Source: a virus. From it: 35,362 nt of DNA. The notes under the pieces were generated by a model. The model searched no databases, was not told where the DNA came from, and saw nothing but the letters and a program-made list of their open reading frames with translations. Every line of letters begins with the position of its first letter. Position 1 is the first letter of the stretch. This document shows, in pieces, positions 9,989 to 35,362 of the stretch. Location of the stretch: IMG/VR virus record IMGVR_UViG_3300032665_000107, positions 1 through 35,362 of that record. One strand, written 5' to 3'. A program made the position numbers and the translations under genes.

Positions 9989-10569
9989 CAGGACGCACAG
10001 CTTCCATCTTGGTCCGGTGGATTGAACTGTATTTGTTCTGCCACGAGGATTTGGGCGTCAGGTGATAAATCGTCTCCACCACCGTATGCCGCCCAGTTCG
10101 TCGCATTGATACCGAGAGAGTCTGGGTAAGCAGGGAATCCAAAGTGACCCCAGCCTCCTTCTTCGCAAATTGCGACTCGGGTCCACTCGGCGTACTCAAG
10201 AGGGGTTACGCCAGTTTGGGTCGGGGGTGTGTCCGGGGCCATTGCAGGTGGGACAGAAGCCGTCTGTGATGTGGTGGTTGGGGATTCTGATGGTTCCACT
10301 GTCGTTGGAGTAGAGGTAGTCGTTTGTGTAGCCGAGGGATGCGGCAGCGTGGCGGAACGCCCATTCGTAGGTGTTGTCGTGGACGGTTGCGTTGTCAGCG
10401 GCTTCAGCAACGGCATCCACGACCTCTTCGCATCCAAGGCCAAAGCCGATCGAATCGTTGCCCTGCCCTTCCCTGAGCTTGCGAGCTTTTGCGATGATCT
10501 CGTAGTCCAAGTCGATAAGCACAATGCCCCAATCAATAGACAAATGGATATGGCCAGGTACTTCTTCAC
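9985..10569 (-). CDS. Secreted Rpf/transglycosylase-like protein
   Basis: GGAAGGA precedes GTG 10569. The 194-residue protein has a signal peptide (KK then LAISICLLIGALCLSTW) and a long Thr/Pro/Ser linker (about 55-120). Its final domain of about 70 residues matches the resuscitation-promoting-factor/lysozyme-like pattern: W129, VAICEEGGW with probable catalytic E136 or E137, then LGINATNWAAYGGG and a C-terminal GSCASW. Such domains cleave actinobacterial peptidoglycan. The role could be lysis or virion entry. Positions 10196-10522 are open in a second frame with strong coding bias, so the linker may be overprinted. Confidence 0.7.
   Translation of the reverse strand: MKKYLAISICLLIGALCLSTWTTRSSQKLASSGKGRATIRSALALDAKRSWMPLLKPLTTQPSTTTPTNGRSATLPHPSATQTTTSTPTTVEPSESPTTTSQTASVPPAMAPDTPPTQTGVTPLEYAEWTRVAICEEGGWGHFGFPAYPDSLGINATNWAAYGGGDDLSPDAQILVAEQIQFNPPDQDGSCASW
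10196..10522 (-). CDS. Alternative-frame protein inside the Rpf-like gene
   Basis: A second leftward frame, from GTG 10522 (GGGG five bases upstream) or ATG 10606, to TGA at 10196, encodes about 108 residues. It shows helices (EIIAKARKLREGQG, EEVVDAVAEAAD), YEWAFRHAAASLGY, then a possible zinc site (FCPTCNGPGH). Third positions are strongly GC-rich, more so than in the frame of the Rpf-like linker. Either both products are made, or this is the older gene and the Rpf-like linker arose by overprinting. No known family. Confidence 0.45.
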   Translation of the reverse strand: MLIDLDYEIIAKARKLREGQGNDSIGFGLGCEEVVDAVAEAADNATVHDNTYEWAFRHAAASLGYTNDYLYSNDSGTIRIPNHHITDGFCPTCNGPGHTPDPNWRNPS

Positions 10570-10726
10570 GATGATGTCCTTCCGCTTTTAGGTGGTTGGG
10601 CACCATCGGCTCAGTGAAGGCTGAGTCCCGGCAGCGGACAGGCTTACACGGGCCTAGGCGTTGTCGCCATCAGCTCTGAAGATGATGTGGGTTCCCTGAG
10701 AGTGTCAGTGGTTCGTTGCAGTCTCC
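10570..10726. other. Gap without convincing gene
   Basis: Only a small hairpin is seen here (10608-10627: CTCAG/CTGAG extended by a G-U and a G-C pair, 6-nt loop). No tRNA, no good promoter and no ORF longer than a few codons. The hairpin could reduce read-through from the peptidase gene into the Rpf-like gene. Confidence 0.35.
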
Positions 10727-11410
10727 TCAGTTCTCAATGGTACAAGTGGGGGGTCGGTGGAGCACGACTGGGATATAGAACGAATCACTTGACCACAGAT
10801 CCTTGGGAGTGACGGTCCAGTTCTTTGCGCTCAAGGGATTCTCGGACTCGATGGTTAGGCCCGCGTCGGTAAAGGCTGAGACGACGAAGGAGCAGCAGGT
10901 CAGCCGCCCATTCTTGTGCGGTCTCAGAAGTATCCTGCTCAGAAGCCCGAGGGTCGTGGCATATCCGCGTGTCTCCCAGCCGTGATAGCTGCGCATCAAA
11001 CAGGGACCGAAGACCCGGAGCAAGGTGCCGTAGTCGAATCCGATCTGACGTTCGAGATAAGCCTTCGCTGCCTTCACGACCTCTGCACGCTTCTCTGATC
11101 TGTGTCTGAGAACTGTGGCCGTGCGGATGTGATTCCCCACCACCTCGGAGATGGGTTGGACTCGGAGAGCGGGATGGTCGAGCGTCGGTCGGGCGCACTG
11201 GATGACCTGGTTGTCCCCGATGTAGAGCACGACGTGGTTCACCGGTCGGTTCTCGGCCAGCTTGGCGAAATGGGAGATCACGCTGTTCATGGTGTCGAGG
11301 ATCAGCACGTCCCCCGGTTCAAGCTGAGAACGGAACTCAGTATCTTTCCAGGTGATCCACCGTTTGCTCAGGGCGTCGATCCGGTTCAGCAGGATCGTTC
11401 GTTCGCTCAC
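10727..11410 (-). CDS. Permuted papain-like (YiiX/NlpC-type) hydrolase
   Basis: AAGGGAG precedes GTG 11410. The 227-residue protein has PGDVLILDT (32-40), then VNHVVLYIGD with probable catalytic H59, and later LTCCSFVVSAF with probable nucleophile C173. His before Cys is the circularly permuted order of the YiiX/YaeF (peptidase C92-like) branch of the NlpC/P60 superfamily. Such enzymes cleave peptide or amide bonds in cell wall or acylated substrates. No signal peptide or membrane segment is seen, so it acts inside the cell or reaches the wall through a holin. Confidence 0.75.
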   Translation of the reverse strand: MSERTILLNRIDALSKRWITWKDTEFRSQLEPGDVLILDTMNSVISHFAKLAENRPVNHVVLYIGDNQVIQCARPTLDHPALRVQPISEVVGNHIRTATVLRHRSEKRAEVVKAAKAYLERQIGFDYGTLLRVFGPCLMRSYHGWETRGYATTLGLLSRILLRPHKNGRLTCCSFVVSAFTDAGLTIESENPLSAKNWTVTPKDLWSSDSFYIPVVLHRPPTCTIEN

Positions 11411-11454
11411 TCCACGCTCCCTTCGGGTGGCTCTACCGGGGGATCAGACGGCAT
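11407..11454 (-). CDS. 15-aa micro-ORF with repeated DPPVEPPEG peptide (copy 1)
   Basis: ATG 11454 lies behind AAGGA, inside the end of the gene at 11444, and the stop overlaps the peptidase start. It encodes MPSDPPVEPPEGSVE. The DNA of the central part is identical to copies at 11937 and 12772. The ORF fills the intercistronic gap exactly, so it may couple translation or make a short functional peptide. Confidence 0.45.
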   Translation of the reverse strand: MPSDPPVEPPEGSVE

Positions 11455-11776
11455 GTGTTCCTTCGACACCACGCTGTTCCCGGTCTCGGGTGCGCTCCGT
11501 CAGCACTTCCAAAGCGGCGTAGAGGTTGCCGAGTGCTACGGCGTTGTGGATGCCGTGGAACTTGGACTTTTGATAGAACTCGATGCGCCCAATGACGGCG
11601 AGGATCACGTCCTCCACGAACGCACCGTTTGGCTCCCGGCGAACGCCATCGACAGCCAACGGCCCGTTCTGCCATTCGATGTCGAACCCGACGCCATGCG
11701 TATCCCCACCAGCGGGGTTTCCGTTGTCATCGACGTGGTGCTGCTGACTAACCACTCCAACTGTTCCCATGTTCAT
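11444..11776 (-). CDS. Phage protein, Acb2/Tad1-hairpin-like candidate
   Basis: AAGGAGCA precedes ATG 11776. The 110-residue protein has GDTHGVGFDIEWQNGPL, then EPNGAFVEDVILAVIGRIEF, and a second long helix (NAVALGNLYAALEVLTERTR) ending EQRGVEGTHAV. This pattern recurs in many tailed-phage proteins. The C-terminal helical hairpin resembles what I recall of the Acb2/Tad1 fold, whose members sequester cyclic-nucleotide or cADPR-type signals of CBASS and Thoeris defence. The family membership is from memory and unproven. Neighbouring accessory genes fit an anti-defence position. Confidence 0.55.
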   Translation of the reverse strand: MNMGTVGVVSQQHHVDDNGNPAGGDTHGVGFDIEWQNGPLAVDGVRREPNGAFVEDVILAVIGRIEFYQKSKFHGIHNAVALGNLYAALEVLTERTRDREQRGVEGTHAV

Positions 11777-11937
11777 TGCTCCTTGCTCGGGCACGACTCA
11801 CGGTGAGCCGCTGCCATTTGTTGAACCCAGGACTTCGGTGAGGTCGGCGGCGTGTGCCATCCGCACCGCTCGCACAACGCCTGCCAGCACGTTTCGATCT
11901 TGACCCCTTCGGGTGGCTCTACCGGGGGATCAGTCAC
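11773..11937 (-). CDS. 54-aa zinc-finger-like protein with repeated N-terminus (copy 2)
   Basis: GTG 11937 overlaps the upstream stop as GTGA, with GAGG at good distance. The protein starts MTDPPVEPPEG, the repeated peptide, and continues with C-x4-C-x2-C-G-W-H and a later H-x3-C, a probable zinc site. The stop overlaps the next start as ATGA. The repeat is the true N-terminus of a longer protein here, which supports its being read as protein in the other copies. Confidence 0.65.
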   Translation of the reverse strand: MTDPPVEPPEGVKIETCWQALCERCGWHTPPTSPKSWVQQMAAAHRESCPSKEQ

Positions 11938-12476
11938 GACTCAGACCTCAGCGCCGCTTCAAGCTCAGCCAGGCGGGTAGCTGGGACGAGCTGGCCGACT
12001 GTAGGAATCGCAGCGAGGAACGCGTGCGCCTCCTCAGATTCAAGCGCGCCGACTGCCAGCTCCCGGAGGAGGTCAGCCTCTTGCCGATCGACAGTTACCA
12101 GAGCCGCTGACACCTTGGCTCGGATGTCTGCCGCCGCTTGAATCTTGAGCCGGTCCCGATCAGTACCACCCCCAGCGAACTTGTCCCCCCAGAGCCTCGG
12201 GACCGCCACCCACATACGCTCGGTGTCGCCCCTGACTTCAAAACCATTTTCGCGCAGGGCGTCATTGATCTTGCAGTTGAACTCCAGCGCAGCCTTGTTG
12301 ACCAGGAACTCCACGTCGGCGCGCTTCTTGTCGTCCTCCGTCTCACGGCTGGTGATCTCGGTCTGGACCTCAGCATTCAACTCGTCCGCCCGCCTGCGAA
12401 TCTCGCTCCGAAGAACCTTGAACTGCTGCCGCACCACCGACCGCAACTCGGTCCGTTCACTCTTTGTTATCGCCAT
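11934..12476 (-). CDS. Coiled-coil-rich phage protein (180 aa)
   Basis: AAGGAAG upstream of ATG 12476 lies inside micro-ORF copy 3. The protein is almost entirely helical and charged: KSERTELRSVVRQQFKVLRS and long heptad-like stretches, then a small central part (MWVAVPRLWGDKF) and a second helical half. Similar N-termini (ELRSVVRQQFKVLR) occur in other actinophage proteins of unknown function. A structural or DNA-associated coiled-coil role is possible. Confidence 0.6.
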   Translation of the reverse strand: MAITKSERTELRSVVRQQFKVLRSEIRRRADELNAEVQTEITSRETEDDKKRADVEFLVNKAALEFNCKINDALRENGFEVRGDTERMWVAVPRLWGDKFAGGGTDRDRLKIQAAADIRAKVSAALVTVDRQEADLLRELAVGALESEEAHAFLAAIPTVGQLVPATRLAELEAALRSES

Positions 12477-12480
12477 CGTT

Positions 12481-12519
12481 TCACTTCCTTCTCCCTTCGG
12501 GTGGCTCTATCGGGGTCAC
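12481..12519 (-). CDS. 12-aa micro-ORF, diverged repeat (copy 3)
   Basis: GTG 12519 overlaps the previous stop as GTGA. It encodes MTPIEPPEGRRK. Compared with the other copies it has lost 6 nt in frame and changed V to I, both changes that keep the reading frame. The end supplies the ribosome site of the gene at 12476. Confidence 0.4.
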   Translation of the reverse strand: MTPIEPPEGRRK

Positions 12520-12743
12520 GGATGGCACCAACTCAAAGCGCCGGGACGGTAGAGGTCGTCATGGTTGTGCTGCCAGTACGCCTGGTCGGCGGGTGGTGTT
12601 GGCTCGCCGTCGTTCATTGGGTCGAACTCCTGGTCGAGAAAGATGTCGACACCACAGTGGATGCAGGTGGCGTGCTGGTGCCCTTCCTCGCCCGTATAGA
12701 GCGAATCGGGGTCCGCCTCGGCGTGAGACAGTTTCGTGTTCAT
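12516..12743 (-). CDS. Small acidic Cys/His protein (75 aa)
   Basis: ATG 12743 overlaps the stop of micro-ORF copy 4 as ATGA. The product has H-x-H-A-T-C-I-H-C-G-V-D-I-F in the first half and HNHDDLYRPG and WCHP near the end, which is probably one zinc site bringing together both ends. The overall charge is strongly negative. Function unknown. Confidence 0.6.
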   Translation of the reverse strand: MNTKLSHAEADPDSLYTGEEGHQHATCIHCGVDIFLDQEFDPMNDGEPTPPADQAYWQHNHDDLYRPGALSWCHP

Positions 12744-12772
12744 TCGGGTGGCTCTACCGGGGGATCAGTCAC
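12740..12772 (-). CDS. 10-aa micro-ORF of the repeated peptide (copy 4)
   Basis: GTG 12772 to TGA 12740 encodes MTDPPVEPPE. It overlaps the upstream stop by 8 nt and the downstream start by 4 nt, so it exactly bridges two genes. The sequence is identical to copy 2 over the shared codons. It is too short to be called a gene by size alone; conservation and coupling are the evidence. Confidence 0.4.
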   Translation of the reverse strand: MTDPPVEPPE

Positions 12773-12893
12773 GTCGGGTCCATTCGTAAACGACCGCTAC
12801 TGCTCCGTCGTCTCGCTGCTCCCAACGGTCGGTTGGTTCCAGCGATGCGGCAGGCCCTGTGATGATCGGGCCGGTTTCCTGCAAGCGGTCCAT
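12765..12893 (-). CDS. Small hypothetical protein (42 aa)
   Basis: ATG 12893 to TGA 12765. The product ends WEQRDDGAVAVVYEWTRRD, a plausible folded sequence. There is no good ribosome site. A competing frame, 12797-12930 (48 aa, starting RLRTHKGSGDDVFAETW), has comparable codon bias and overlaps most of it. One of the two, or a frame change between them, is probably the real gene. Confidence 0.4.
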   Translation of the reverse strand: MDRLQETGPIITGPAASLEPTDRWEQRDDGAVAVVYEWTRRD

Positions 12894-12948
12894 GTTTCAG
12901 CAAAAACGTCATCGCCGCTCCCCTTGTGGGTCCGGAGCCTCATTTCCT

Positions 12949-13785
12949 TCACTTCGCCCTCACGATCAGCCCGGCTTTGCTGAGCTCGTAGCCAGCGGGG
13001 AGCGTGGTGGTCTTGTCGGCATTGGCCCCGGAGAGGTAGGCCCCGGAGAGGTTGGCCCCGGAGAGGTTGGCCCTGGAGAGGTCGGCCCCGTAGAGGTCGG
13101 CCCCGGAGAGGTTGGCCCTGGAGAGGTCGGCCCCGGAGAGGTTGGCCCTGGAGAGGTTGGCCCTGGAGAGGTCGGCCCTGGAGAGGTTGGCCCCGTAGAG
13201 GTTGGCCCTGGAGAGGTAGGCCCTGGAGAGGTCGGCCCTGGAGAGGTCGGCCCCGGAGAGGTCGGCCCCGGAGAGGTTGGCCCCGTAGAGGTTGGCCCCG
13301 TAGAGGTCGGCCCTGGAGAGGTCGGCCCCGGAGAGGTTGGCCCCGTAGAGGTTGGCCCTGGAGAGGTTGGCCCCGTAGAGGTTGGCCCTGGAGAGGTCGG
13401 CCCCGGAGAGGTTGGCCCCGGAGAGGTCGGCCCTGGAGAGGTCGGCCCCGTAGAGGTTGGCCCCGGAGAGGTTGACGACCGGCCCGACCTTGACCTTGGC
13501 CGCACGCAACTTTCCACCCGTGTCGACGACCTTGACACCACGAGGAACCGTGATCTCTACGATGGTCGGTCCCCATCTCAACGCTTCGGCGACTGACCGA
13601 CAGAAGTTGATCCCCTGGCCGCAATCTTTCTCGGGGTCAAGGTCGATGCCATCAGCGGTGACTGTCGTGCCCTCCGTGTAGGTGAGCTTGTGTACTGCGG
13701 TCGGCGACTGCAGCTCCTTCGTCACCCCCTTGTAGTAGGGAAGAGACCGAATGACGGAGTGGCTGCTCGTCGCCTCAGCGGTCAC
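12949..13785 (-). CDS. Pentapeptide-repeat protein
   Basis: I prefer GTG 13785 (GAAGG nine bases upstream) over TTG 13794. After a ~100-residue N-terminal domain ([20 protein letters not shown], then [12 protein letters not shown]) come 30 uninterrupted A[ND]L[SY][GR] pentapeptides, which fold as a right-handed quadrilateral beta-helix. A short C-terminal cap follows ([17 protein letters not shown]). Some pentapeptide proteins (MfpA, Qnr) mimic DNA and protect or inhibit gyrase; most have no known role. The regular stretch would be about 7-8 coils long. Target unknown. Confidence 0.85.
13024..13473. repeat. 15-bp tandem repeat array (30 units)
   Basis: The DNA encoding the pentapeptides consists of nearly identical 15-bp units (GGCC-C/T-NGAGAGGT-type). 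Variation is confined mostly to the N/D, S/Y and G/R codons. Such homogeneity points to recent expansion by slippage or recombination, so length is probably variable between relatives and assemblies. Confidence 0.85.
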
Positions 13786-14029
13786 GATCCACAACCTTCA
13801 TTCCGTTTTCATCACGAACCTTCACAGCCTCGGCGCAGTTGGCGCAGTTAGTCCAGCCGTTCGCCTTCGGGTGAACGACGTGCGGCTCCGTGACTCCGCA
13901 GACACGAGGAGGGGCGTTGTAGATCTGGTCCAATGCCTTTTGCAACCCCTCCAACGTCAGCGAAGAGGGCTCAGTGTTCACGTTCGACACGAGCCATGGG
14001 CTCTCCTCGGGTACTTGGGGGCTACTCAC
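13775..14029 (-). CDS. Small Cys-containing protein (84 aa)
   Basis: The start is placed at GTG 14029, overlapping the upstream TAG; a GTG further in (about residue 15) is an alternative after GAGGAG. The middle is helical ([14 protein letters not shown]), followed by RVCG, HVVHP and NCANC, a likely zinc site. It overlaps the start of the pentapeptide gene by 11 nt. Function unknown. Confidence 0.55.
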
Positions 14030-14849
14030 CGGATTTCGATTTCTCAAGCTGATCGATGACGTGGCGAGCCTCGGCGAAGGTGAGATCCTCCGGACTGGTG
14101 AAAGTGGGGATGATTCCCTGGATTATTGGTCCAGGGTTGATGTTGGGGCCGACCAGCACACCTATACGGTCGATTTGAGCCTTCTGAGCCATCTTCATGC
14201 CCCCACGGGGGGGCTGGGAGGTTTGCGGGGCTCCTGAGCGATTCTGGGCCGTCTCACGGGATTCTGGCTGGAATCTGCCGTTGTCCACGATCTCCTCGGC
14301 TGAGACTTCCCCCATTCCGAAGAGATCGGCCTGGGCTCGGTTGGTGGCTCGGGTCATGGCTGTGGCCGGGATGTCGTGGCTGGGATTGGAGAAGTGCTGC
14401 CGGCCGGTGCAGTTCTCGTCGCAGTGGACGTGTCCGGTGGGCCTGCCCGAGTCGGGCCAGGTCTCCCAGCGAGTACAGGTGGACGAGTCACAGCATCGCT
14501 CATGGATATCGCAGGCCCCGATGCCGTCCTGGAATCGTCCATTGGGAGCCAGGGCCCGGACCGTGCACTGGACCCTCTCGATCCTGCTCCGCGGTCCCCG
14601 CTCCACGTCCTCTTTCAGGAGCTCGGTGGAGACGTTGAAGGCGACCGAGAGCTTGCGCCACGCTGACTTCTTCTTGAATCGCTTGTCCCCGATGATCTGG
14701 TAGTCCGAGTCGTCCAAGAGGGCGGCGCAGAGTTGGTGATAGGCCTGCTGCATCGCTACGACCTGCTCGACCGGGGCTGATTGGATCAGAGCCGGGTTGA
14801 TCGGAACCAGGGGACCGTCGACTACTTCCACCTCTGCTGGCTCGACCAT
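14022..14849 (-). CDS. Rad52-like single-strand annealing candidate
   Basis: The 275-residue protein is the first gene after the leaderless promoter at 14856. It has YQIIGDKRFKKKSAWRKL, then RVQCTVRALAPNGRFQDGIG and HDIPATAMTRATNRAQADLFG, followed by GEVSAEE. The order of a beta-rich strand with G-x-G followed by an ATA-TRA-NRA helix resembles the Rad52/Sak annealing core, and relatives occur widely in phages. Between these parts is a Cys-rich insert (IHERCCDSSTC, CDENC) that could bind zinc. The acidic C-terminal tail is typical of annealing or ssDNA-binding proteins. Annealing activity is inferred, not shown. Confidence 0.5.
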   Translation of the reverse strand: MVEPAEVEVVDGPLVPINPALIQSAPVEQVVAMQQAYHQLCAALLDDSDYQIIGDKRFKKKSAWRKLSVAFNVSTELLKEDVERGPRSRIERVQCTVRALAPNGRFQDGIGACDIHERCCDSSTCTRWETWPDSGRPTGHVHCDENCTGRQHFSNPSHDIPATAMTRATNRAQADLFGMGEVSAEEIVDNGRFQPESRETAQNRSGAPQTSQPPRGGMKMAQKAQIDRIGVLVGPNINPGPIIQGIIPTFTSPEDLTFAEARHVIDQLEKSKSGE

Positions 14850-14855
14850 CCCCCT

Positions 14856-14885
14856 ACCCTAACGAATCTGTCATGACTGTGTCAA
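14856..14885 (-). promoter_or_regulatory. Leaderless leftward promoter with operator-like 17-mer
   Basis: Read leftwards: TTGACA (14885-14880), an 18-bp spacer, then TAGGGT (14861-14856), followed by 6 nt and ATG 14849. The plus-strand sequence 14869-14885 is an exact copy of the 17-mer at 2379-2395. It should drive the Rad52-like gene and the accessory block, under the same regulator as the repressor cassette. Confidence 0.7.
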
Positions 14886-14894
14886 GCAGGACTT

Positions 14895-15671
14895 TCAGGT
14901 GGGAGTTGCGTACTTACCGTCCCTGGTGAACGCATACTGGGCATAGGGTCCGGTGCCCACGAAGATGACATATCCCACGTCGTTGCCGGTTCCGAAGGTG
15001 GAGATGCCGGCGATTTCGGACAGGTTCACGCCCCAGTCTGGGTGGATGTTGAACCCTCCGAGATAAGGGGGAGTTCCGCTTCCCTCCACGGCGTAGGCCC
15101 AAATGGATCCGTTCTCGGGATTGAGCACCCACGTTCCGCCACTCACTGGGTCTGTGACTTGCATGTTCAGCTCCGGTACTGGTCGGGGGTGGATAGGTCT
15201 TCCCGGCAGCCACCCGTCTTCGATGACCCACTGGTCATAGGATCCGCGATCGACCCACTGGTGGCCCGGGGATCCGGGGTAGAGGACGGGGCCGATGCCC
15301 GGGTAGGCGGCGATGAGCCAGTCGACTTGACTGGGAAGGATGTCGATCTCGGTGCAGGCCTCCATAGCGTCGTGCCAGTCGGAGAAGCTGCAGTAGGTGG
15401 CGGGGACCCAGCCTGCGGTGATCTTGGCTGCCGCCGCATCGGCAGCCTGTTCGGGACTGTAGTCACCCTGCTCCATGTCGGAGCAGACGGCAGAAAGGGA
15501 GTTGGCCGCGAGAGGATCAGCCGAGATCGAAAAGGGGATGGCGGACGGGAACCGGGCCCGCATGGCCTGGTAGGAAGGCCACTCGCCATTGATGTATCCG
15601 CCCACGTACTGCGGGGCTGGAATACCGGCCGGGATCGATGCCGGATCAATGGCATCGTATCCCGTCGCCAT
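14895..15671 (-). CDS. GH25-like lysozyme/endolysin
   Basis: ATG 15671 shares its A with the preceding TGA. The first ~170 residues follow the glycoside-hydrolase pattern of actinophage lysins: GYDAIDPASIPAG at the start, YVGGYINGEW, SDMEQGDYSPEQAADAA with probable acid E67, ATYCSFSDWHDAM, and GHQWVDRGSYDQW as the last barrel strand. These are TIM-barrel muramidases. The last ~90 residues look like an added binding domain. It is one of three cell-wall-active proteins in the window and the best endolysin candidate. Confidence 0.65.
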   Translation of the reverse strand: MATGYDAIDPASIPAGIPAPQYVGGYINGEWPSYQAMRARFPSAIPFSISADPLAANSLSAVCSDMEQGDYSPEQAADAAAAKITAGWVPATYCSFSDWHDAMEACTEIDILPSQVDWLIAAYPGIGPVLYPGSPGHQWVDRGSYDQWVIEDGWLPGRPIHPRPVPELNMQVTDPVSGGTWVLNPENGSIWAYAVEGSGTPPYLGGFNIHPDWGVNLSEIAGISTFGTGNDVGYVIFVGTGPYAQYAFTRDGKYATPT

Positions 15672-16360: not shown

Positions 16361-16391
16361 CTCAGTCCGGGTTCGAATCCCGGGGGTGTCC
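16361..16391 (+). other. tRNA 3'-half-like sequence, candidate attP core
   Basis: CCGGG (16367-16371), TTCGAAT, CCCGG (16379-16383) is a perfect T-arm, followed by GGGTGTCC like an acceptor strand. No cloverleaf of normal length fits: the best nearby 5' strand gives only 5 of 7 pairs and a 60-nt RNA. GGACACT at 16267 pairs fully but makes the RNA 125 nt. Phage attP cores often copy the 3' half of a host tRNA gene. It lies in a 159-nt gene-free gap and ends at the stop of the 1313-aa gene. No integrase is visible. Confidence 0.45.
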
Positions 16392-29440: not shown

Positions 29441-29484
29441 ATCGACATGGACCTCGATCATGGCCTGTTTAAGGAGTGAGCGTT

Positions 29485-29511
29485 GATCCCTCGGTTTCCG
29501 ACCGGGGGATC
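29485..29511. terminator. Hairpin after the portal-side gene cluster
   Basis: GATCCC (29485-29490) and GGGATC-type right arm (to 29511) form a 6-bp plus 4-bp stem with one mismatch and a 5-nt loop. It stands 27 nt after the stop of the gene at 29538 and would end or slow leftward transcription from the terminase/portal genes. Confidence 0.5.
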
Positions 29512-29537
29512 TTCGTTCTATACAGAAGCTGTGTGGT

Positions 29538-35356: not shown

Positions 35357-35362
35357 AAAGAC

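Follow-up and report, generated by a model that had tools for sequence, protein, structure and literature searches.

The locus and its genes

The window, that is, the whole stretch of DNA analysed here, is a virus record of 35,362 nt from a soil phage, in one contig. Its called genes lie on the minus strand, and it encodes a terminase, a portal, and a major head protein with matches to phage families. The segment under study reads, in the direction of transcription, gene A, copy 4 of a short repeat, gene B, copy 3, gene C, copy 2 fused to a 54-aa ORF, gene D, copy 1, and gene E (Table 1).

Table 1. Positions of the genes, repeat copies, and micro-ORFs of the segment, and of other features of the window.
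Feature	Position	Strand	Description
Gene E	10727..11410	minus	227 aa; weak match to permuted papain-like / NlpC-P60 enzymes, below curated cut-offs
Repeat copy 1	11407..11453	minus	Between the Tad1-like gene D and gene E; holds the Shine-Dalgarno of gene E
Micro-ORF of copy 1	11407..11454	minus	15 aa, MPSDPPVEPPEGSVE and stop; overlaps the gene D stop by 11 nt and the gene E start by 4 nt (GTGA)
Gene D	11444..11776	minus	Tad1 homologue by tblastn and phmmer; C-terminus ends exactly at the start of copy 1
54-aa ORF	11773..11937	minus	Begins MTDPPVEPPEGVKIETCW; CxxC...H...C, zinc-finger-like (by eye); GTG start overlaps the gene C stop by 4 nt
Repeat copy 2	11893..11939	minus	After the gene C stop; in-frame N-terminus of the 54-aa ORF (MTDPPVEPPEG...)
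Gene C	11934..12476	minus	180 aa
Repeat copy 3	12481..12527	minus	Between genes B and C; 6-nt deletion and G-to-A; holds the Shine-Dalgarno of gene C
Micro-ORF of copy 3	12481..12519	minus	12 aa, MTPIEPPEGRRK and stop; GTG start; overlaps the gene B stop by 4 nt (GTGA); ends 4 nt before the gene C ATG
Gene B	12516..12743	minus	75 aa, CxxC-containing; no Shine-Dalgarno (-3.1 kcal/mol)
Repeat copy 4	12728..12774	minus	Between genes A and B; 31-nt match CGTGACTGATCCCCCGGTAGAGCCACCCGAA; without the Shine-Dalgarno part
Micro-ORF of copy 4	12740..12772	minus	10 aa, MTDPPVEPPE and stop; GTG start; overlaps the gene A stop by 8 nt and the gene B start by 4 nt (ATGA)
Gene A	12765..12893	minus	ORF of 42 aa
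Pentapeptide-repeat protein	12949-13785	minus	Long array with a 15-nt period
275-aa protein	14022-14849	minus	
Exact 17-nt repeat TTGACACAGTCATGACA	14869-14885 and 2379-2395	minus	
T-arm-like GGGTTCGAATCCC	16369-16381	plus	Beside the end of the tape-measure gene
tRNA-Gly(TCC), predicted	29458-29535	plus	

By sequence homology, gene D encodes a Tad1 (Thoeris anti-defence 1), a protein with which phages counter the Thoeris defence, and it may bind gcADPR signals. Residues 39-114 aligned with the solved Tad1 of PDB 8KBB (phmmer, E=3.7e-8), and the tblastn matches were phages with annotated Tad1; the hosts of those listed are Bacillus, Vibrio, and others with no close relation to one another, and the phage studied here is probably one of Acidimicrobiia (see below). 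No homologue of the 54-aa ORF was found in the searches, nor any relative of gene C, gene E, or the gene for the 275-aa protein in IMG/VR, and the collections searched hold no close relative of the repeat-bearing segment as a whole.

Two further genes lie next to this segment. The pentapeptide-repeat array has similar counterparts in Caulobacter and in mycobacteriophages, and the only phage proteins matched by the 275-aa protein, at 41% and 32% identity, were hypothetical ones from Methanobacteriales viruses. We take the latter protein to be reminiscent of single-strand annealing proteins. Just upstream of its start lies one of the two occurrences of TTGACACAGTCATGACA, a candidate phage promoter with TAGGGT at about the -10 distance, at a site that the sigma-70 scan did not report.

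Four copies of a junction repeat

A direct repeat of about 29-31 nt with the core CTGATCCCCCGGTAGAGCCACCCGAAGGG (extended form, GTGACTGATCCCCCGGTAGAGCCACCCGAAGGGAG) occurs on the minus strand in exactly four copies, all of them within 1.4 kb of the 35-kb record and at junctions between minus-strand genes. Four near-identical copies had been claimed in the first-pass annotation, and coordinates, shuffled sequences, self-BLAST, and a weight matrix all confirmed them. With up to three mismatches allowed, a 17-mer of the repeat matched four times in the window, versus a mean of 0.16 and a maximum of 2 in the shuffles, and the longest exact matches among copies in self-BLAST were of 31 nt (E 9e-10), 29 nt (1e-8), and 26 nt (7e-7). 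The weight matrix gave the four copies 34.6-36.4 bits and the next best site 9.3 bits, which is the level of noise, and its scan of the window revealed no fifth, weaker copy above that level.

The near-identity holds overall, with the exception that copy 4 ends before the stretch with the Shine-Dalgarno. Copy 3 is the one with the V-to-I change and the in-frame deletion of 6 nt that had been reported earlier; at the DNA level it shows the deletion and a G-to-A substitution. The placement of all four copies in gaps proved right for copies 4, 3, and 1, which occupy real gaps of 21, 39, and 33 nt, respectively, but not for copy 2, where there is no gap and the repeat belongs to an ORF whose start shares 4 nt (GTGA) with the gene upstream.

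The first eight bases of the repeat contain TGA in two frames and leave a single open frame, which begins with GTG. The first TGA is the end of genes B and C, and the second that of genes A and D. The open frame runs for 10, 12, and 15 codons in copies 4, 3, and 1, and in copy 2 it opens the 54-aa ORF as its N-terminus, in agreement with the lengths given in the first-pass annotation. A functional micropeptide family, or a shared N-terminal tag (MTDPPVEPPEG) kept for the sake of the peptide, would explain why a single frame is open in each of the four copies, why the deletion stays in frame, and why copy 2 is fused in frame. However, synonymous sites are (nearly) invariant between the four copies, so nothing speaks for selection on the peptide, and a single 6-nt deletion plus a single substitution have no statistical power; the earlier suggestion that the peptide is maintained is not supported.

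Translation signals and tiling of the gaps

The duplex between the Shine-Dalgarno and the anti-Shine-Dalgarno was calculated at -16.2 kcal/mol for gene E (copy 1), -10.4 kcal/mol for gene C (copy 3), and -3.1 kcal/mol for gene B (copy 4). That of copy 1 was the strongest among the starts tested, and copies 1 and 3, which place GAAGGGAG ahead of genes E and C, were the best of their operon. No repeat precedes gene D, which comes with an AAGGAG of its own and a simple ATGA overlap. From this Shine-Dalgarno content, copies 1 and 3 are on their face ribosome-binding sites, copy 4 could act only through coupling, and copy 2 is coding.

Most other junctions tested showed gaps near zero (-11 to +12 nt), in contrast to the 21, 33, and 39 nt found at the cassettes, and each of these three real gaps is tiled by one micro-ORF. 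The micro-ORFs overlap the upstream side by 4-11 nt and, on the downstream side, overlap by 4 nt in copies 1 and 4 or leave a 4-nt gap in copy 3. These junctions therefore show the stop/start overlap of about 4 nt, or the very short gap, that termination-reinitiation coupling calls for. In published reporter assays, termination-reinitiation was supported by 4-nt overlaps and nearly lost with gaps of around 20 nt (PMC10666635, PMC6728339). The ATGA/GTGA pairs described there resemble the 4-nt overlaps found here between micro-ORFs and neighbouring genes, with the difference that here the overlap is borne by a repeated element and not by unique gene ends.

When the core was kept and the flanks were randomised, the chance of tiling was 0.023 for copy 4, 0.109 for copy 3, and 0.033 for copy 1. 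This simulation was designed after the data had been seen, and the three probabilities are not independent because the copies share their left end; with both points taken into account, it gives moderate support for a micro-ORF above chance.

RNA structure, promoters, and distribution of the repeat

None of the four copies showed a stable RNA fold (folding z-scores 0.42, -1.05, 0.12, and 0.46), which argues against the conserved RNA structure that the first-pass annotation had raised as an alternative to conserved codons. No Rfam match with E up to 1 was obtained between positions 10500 and 14900, and with neither fold nor family match, a structured RNA or attenuator was rejected. A promoter or terminator repeat was likewise discarded, as the scan for sigma-70-type promoters over 10700-15000 was negative and no terminator-like site was detected at the copies. 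The motif GGTAGAGCC recalls a D-arm, but no tRNA was predicted there and no Rfam match was found, so a tRNA fragment was also set aside.

An origin in the host is not indicated either: 4 of 395 Acidimicrobiia genomes contained a single one-mismatch match each, which is the level of the control pattern. As for spread in other viruses, IMG/VR yielded one chance match, located inside a gene.

Junction repeats in related phages

Relatives of the terminase were found in IMG/VR contigs and in one Acidimicrobiaceae genome contig, and a second relative, detected through the tape-measure, belongs to the same bacterial class (Acidimicrobiia). Sister contigs are present in the source metagenomes IMG 3300032560 and 3300032676. 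Given the bacterial contigs, the phage family probably infects Acidimicrobiia. The repeat of the window was absent from the members of the terminase family searched. At least four of these relatives (G015, G003, G012, and G001) bear junction repeats of their own, of different sequence, again with stop/start overlaps and usually with a ribosome-binding site.

Relative G015 carries four copies of the CCGGCAGAGAGCGACGACGAATGA type, with tails of the PAESDDE-and-stop type, three of them being in-frame C-terminal parts of upstream genes. The fourth is a 33-nt micro-ORF of 10 codons, GTGACATCACCGGCAGAGAGCGACGACGAATGA (GTG...GAATGA), with GTGA at the upstream stop and ATGA at the next start, a layout much like that of copy 4. 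Since the simple gene caller did not pair the G015 copies, they were found via self-BLAST. Five copies of the CGCCACCAACCCCAAGGAGGACGG type (AALATNPKEDG, AAGGAGG) are present in G003, one of them in frame between ribbon-helix-helix-like and zinc-ribbon-like domains (by eye), as if two genes had been fused via the cassette; partial paralogues (ATIAQLRAEKDA segments) lie between its cassettes. The Acidimicrobiaceae contig, G012, has three copies of the GTGGACGGTGAGGGATGA type, and G001 two copies of GGAGGACGACAAGTGAGCA. Junction-to-junction similarity exceeded that of gene-interior controls in the window, G001, G003, and G012. No junction repeat family was detected in six other long relatives (G013, G014, G016, G017, G018, and the prophage G356).

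Among 69 unrelated, terminase-centred control loci, 6 contained one junction pair scoring at least 18, and 1 had three copies; since the control set was built around the terminase and is unmatched for accessory regions, the enrichment in the family is indicative only. A three-copy junction repeat came up among the controls in a contig of a Clostridium MAG (L105, 6436-7224), an unrelated locus.

The micro-ORF of G015 aligned with copy 4 as the first of 488 family junctions, with a score of 13 versus 12 for the next, unrelated junction, so homology between both cassettes is suggestive by rank and not significant. A combined pattern, built from both sequences, retrieved only G015 from IMG/VR. The rank would favour conservation of the micropeptide itself, but the narrow score difference, the distinct peptides of the relatives (PAESDDE, ATNPKEDG, LDGEG, and EDDK, mostly at C-termini), and the lack of synonymous variation between the copies of the window make a function of the peptide very unlikely.

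Comparison with known phage repeats

The start-associated sequence (SAS) of cluster K mycobacteriophages is a 13-bp element, GGGATAGGAGCCC, found across many phages and genes, with an extended form (ESAS) that adds 17-bp imperfect inverted repeats upstream, and its near-identity exceeds what pairing with rRNA needs (PMC3203893). As in the window, it is a short repeat just upstream of starts, with a Shine-Dalgarno core and sometimes an upstream stop, mostly outside the structural module; in contrast, the repeat described here is of about 30 nt, has four adjacent copies and no stable fold, is genome-specific, and is open in one frame throughout. The resemblance to SAS noted in the first-pass annotation stands for the position, immediately upstream of starts as a ribosome-binding site in copies 1, 3, and 4 but inside an ORF in copy 2. 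It fails for the sequence: with up to three mismatches, the SAS consensus matched 18 times in the window versus 16.3 expected, and with up to two there was one 2-mismatch match, on the plus strand, and none at gene starts. The mycobacteriophage SAS was thus rejected. SAS is also one sequence common to related phages; the window repeat was missing from the searched members of the family, and IMG/VR gave one chance match within a gene.

A regulatory site of the same general kind, at which a phage or host protein or RNA would bind and control the initiation of a set of genes, with frame and peptide irrelevant, is a broader possibility. The position ahead of starts, the Shine-Dalgarno content, and a near-identity beyond the needs of rRNA pairing, as in SAS (PMC3203893), are consistent with it, as are the intergenic repeats that precede six genes in the Gordonia phage CaiB (PMC9302106). 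The CaiB repeat ends, like the one described here, in a purine-rich stretch, GAGAGGAC, at -4 to -11 of gene starts, but it serves non-adjacent genes, has split conserved blocks, and has no micro-ORF described. Copy 2 inside an ORF, copy 4 without its Shine-Dalgarno part, the presence of only four adjacent copies, and the differing sequences in related phages lead us to consider such a site unlikely.

In T4-type phages, PeSL cassettes (Arbiol et al. 2010; Comeau et al. 2014, cited in PMC4503421) consist of a promoter and a stem-loop and, as summarised in the citing article, promote shuffling at gene junctions. Both these and the present repeat are repeated junction elements, and a role as mediator of accessory-gene shuffling has been proposed for the former. 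As far as that summary describes them, they differ from the repeat of the window, which has a stop/start overlap and a ribosome-binding site but neither a match to an early promoter (sigma-70-like scan, 10700-15000) nor a stem-loop at its copies.

In the mycobacteriophage LRRHood, a 29-bp direct repeat flanks an acquired block, genes 43-46 (PMC3029335), and we found this repeat again in the LRRHood sequence. It is similar in size (about 29 bp), in spanning the end of one gene and the region upstream of another, and in bounding inserted genes, although it has two copies around one block compared to four here around successive small genes. It provides a precedent for an inert remnant of recent duplication, in which the junction was copied along with duplicated or acquired gene cassettes and the similarity reflects recent origin, not function. 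The near-identity of the copies everywhere, synonymous sites included, and the partial paralogues between the cassettes of G003 point the same way. However, the genes between the copies of the window are not alike (by eye), so under duplication all but the junction was replaced, and the operon has its best Shine-Dalgarno matches in copies 1 and 3; we regard a mere remnant as quite unlikely.

LRRHood also showed a block of Shine-Dalgarno, start, and N-terminus, CAAGGAGCCCC.AAATGAACGCCA, repeated at several genes (L179, 2306-2389, 2629-2708, and 9160-9197), which is another start repeat that is both coding and regulatory.

A proposed translational adaptor at gene junctions

The explanation that we favour, if with modest confidence, is that the repeat is a gene-junction cassette that serves an operon of small accessory genes as its translational adaptor, with copies probably spread, or genes shuffled, by recombination. 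At its left end, GTGACTGA, stops in two frames lie beside a GTG start, so that an upstream gene in either frame would end there and the ribosome could restart at once. In the open third frame, a micro-ORF of 8-15 codons would then take the ribosome across the gap of 21-39 nt; the next start shares bases with the stop of the micro-ORF (ATGA/GTGA) or sits 4 nt past it. The right end would add the strong Shine-Dalgarno GAAGGGAG in copies 1 and 3; copy 4, without it, would depend on coupling, and in copy 2 the micro-ORF is fused in frame to the next gene. Thus seen, the peptide itself would most likely be a by-product. A translation-coupling cassette was among the ideas of the first-pass annotation and is the best supported of them, by the tiling of the gaps and by the cassettes of the same layout in relatives; translation of the micro-ORFs and reinitiation after them are what we infer from these arrangements.

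The common denominator of the cassettes is their job, not their sequence: a stop, a start, and usually a ribosome-binding site on a short portable element. Copies are near-identical within a genome and unrelated or barely alike between genomes, a pattern more in keeping with recent spread in each lineage than with a regulator site conserved since long ago. Each phage lineage would probably amplify its own junction sequence, with copies spreading and the intervening genes being shuffled through recombination at short homologies. The boundary repeats of LRRHood (PMC3029335) and the T4-type cassettes, as cited in PMC4503421, are precedents for this reading. Recombination as the cause is likewise our inference, no event at a cassette having been caught in the collections searched. 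Against the adaptor speak copy 2, whose place inside an ORF does not match the role of a ribosome-binding site alone, and the junction repeats outside this phage family, in the control loci mentioned above.

Junction repeats as such are already known in phages (SAS, T4-type cassettes, boundary repeats), and what is new here is that relatives have their own, different junction cassettes of the same layout. They bear on the question of how phages fit small accessory genes (anti-defence genes, for example) into tight operons without breaking translation. An element that offers homology for recombination together with a signal for restarting translation would resolve the two parts of it together. 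A further step, possible but doubtful, is that lineage-specific plug-in adaptors, each a short repeat that combines a two-frame stop, an overlapping start, a micro-ORF, and a ribosome-binding site, let incoming accessory genes (in this phage, anti-defence and zinc-finger-like ones) insert between copies by recombination and be translated at once, in whichever of two frames the upstream gene ends. If the adaptor reading is true, annotation pipelines would overlook short translated ORFs that matter only as bridges.

Other features of the window

The predicted tRNA-Gly(TCC) lies on the strand opposite to the genes. The T-arm-like GGGTTCGAATCCC is at a position where no tRNA was predicted. Finally, position 1 of two other contigs (L006 and L007) lies 1,553 nt before the terminase gene, the same distance as in the window (its end at 35362), which suggests a physical genome end.
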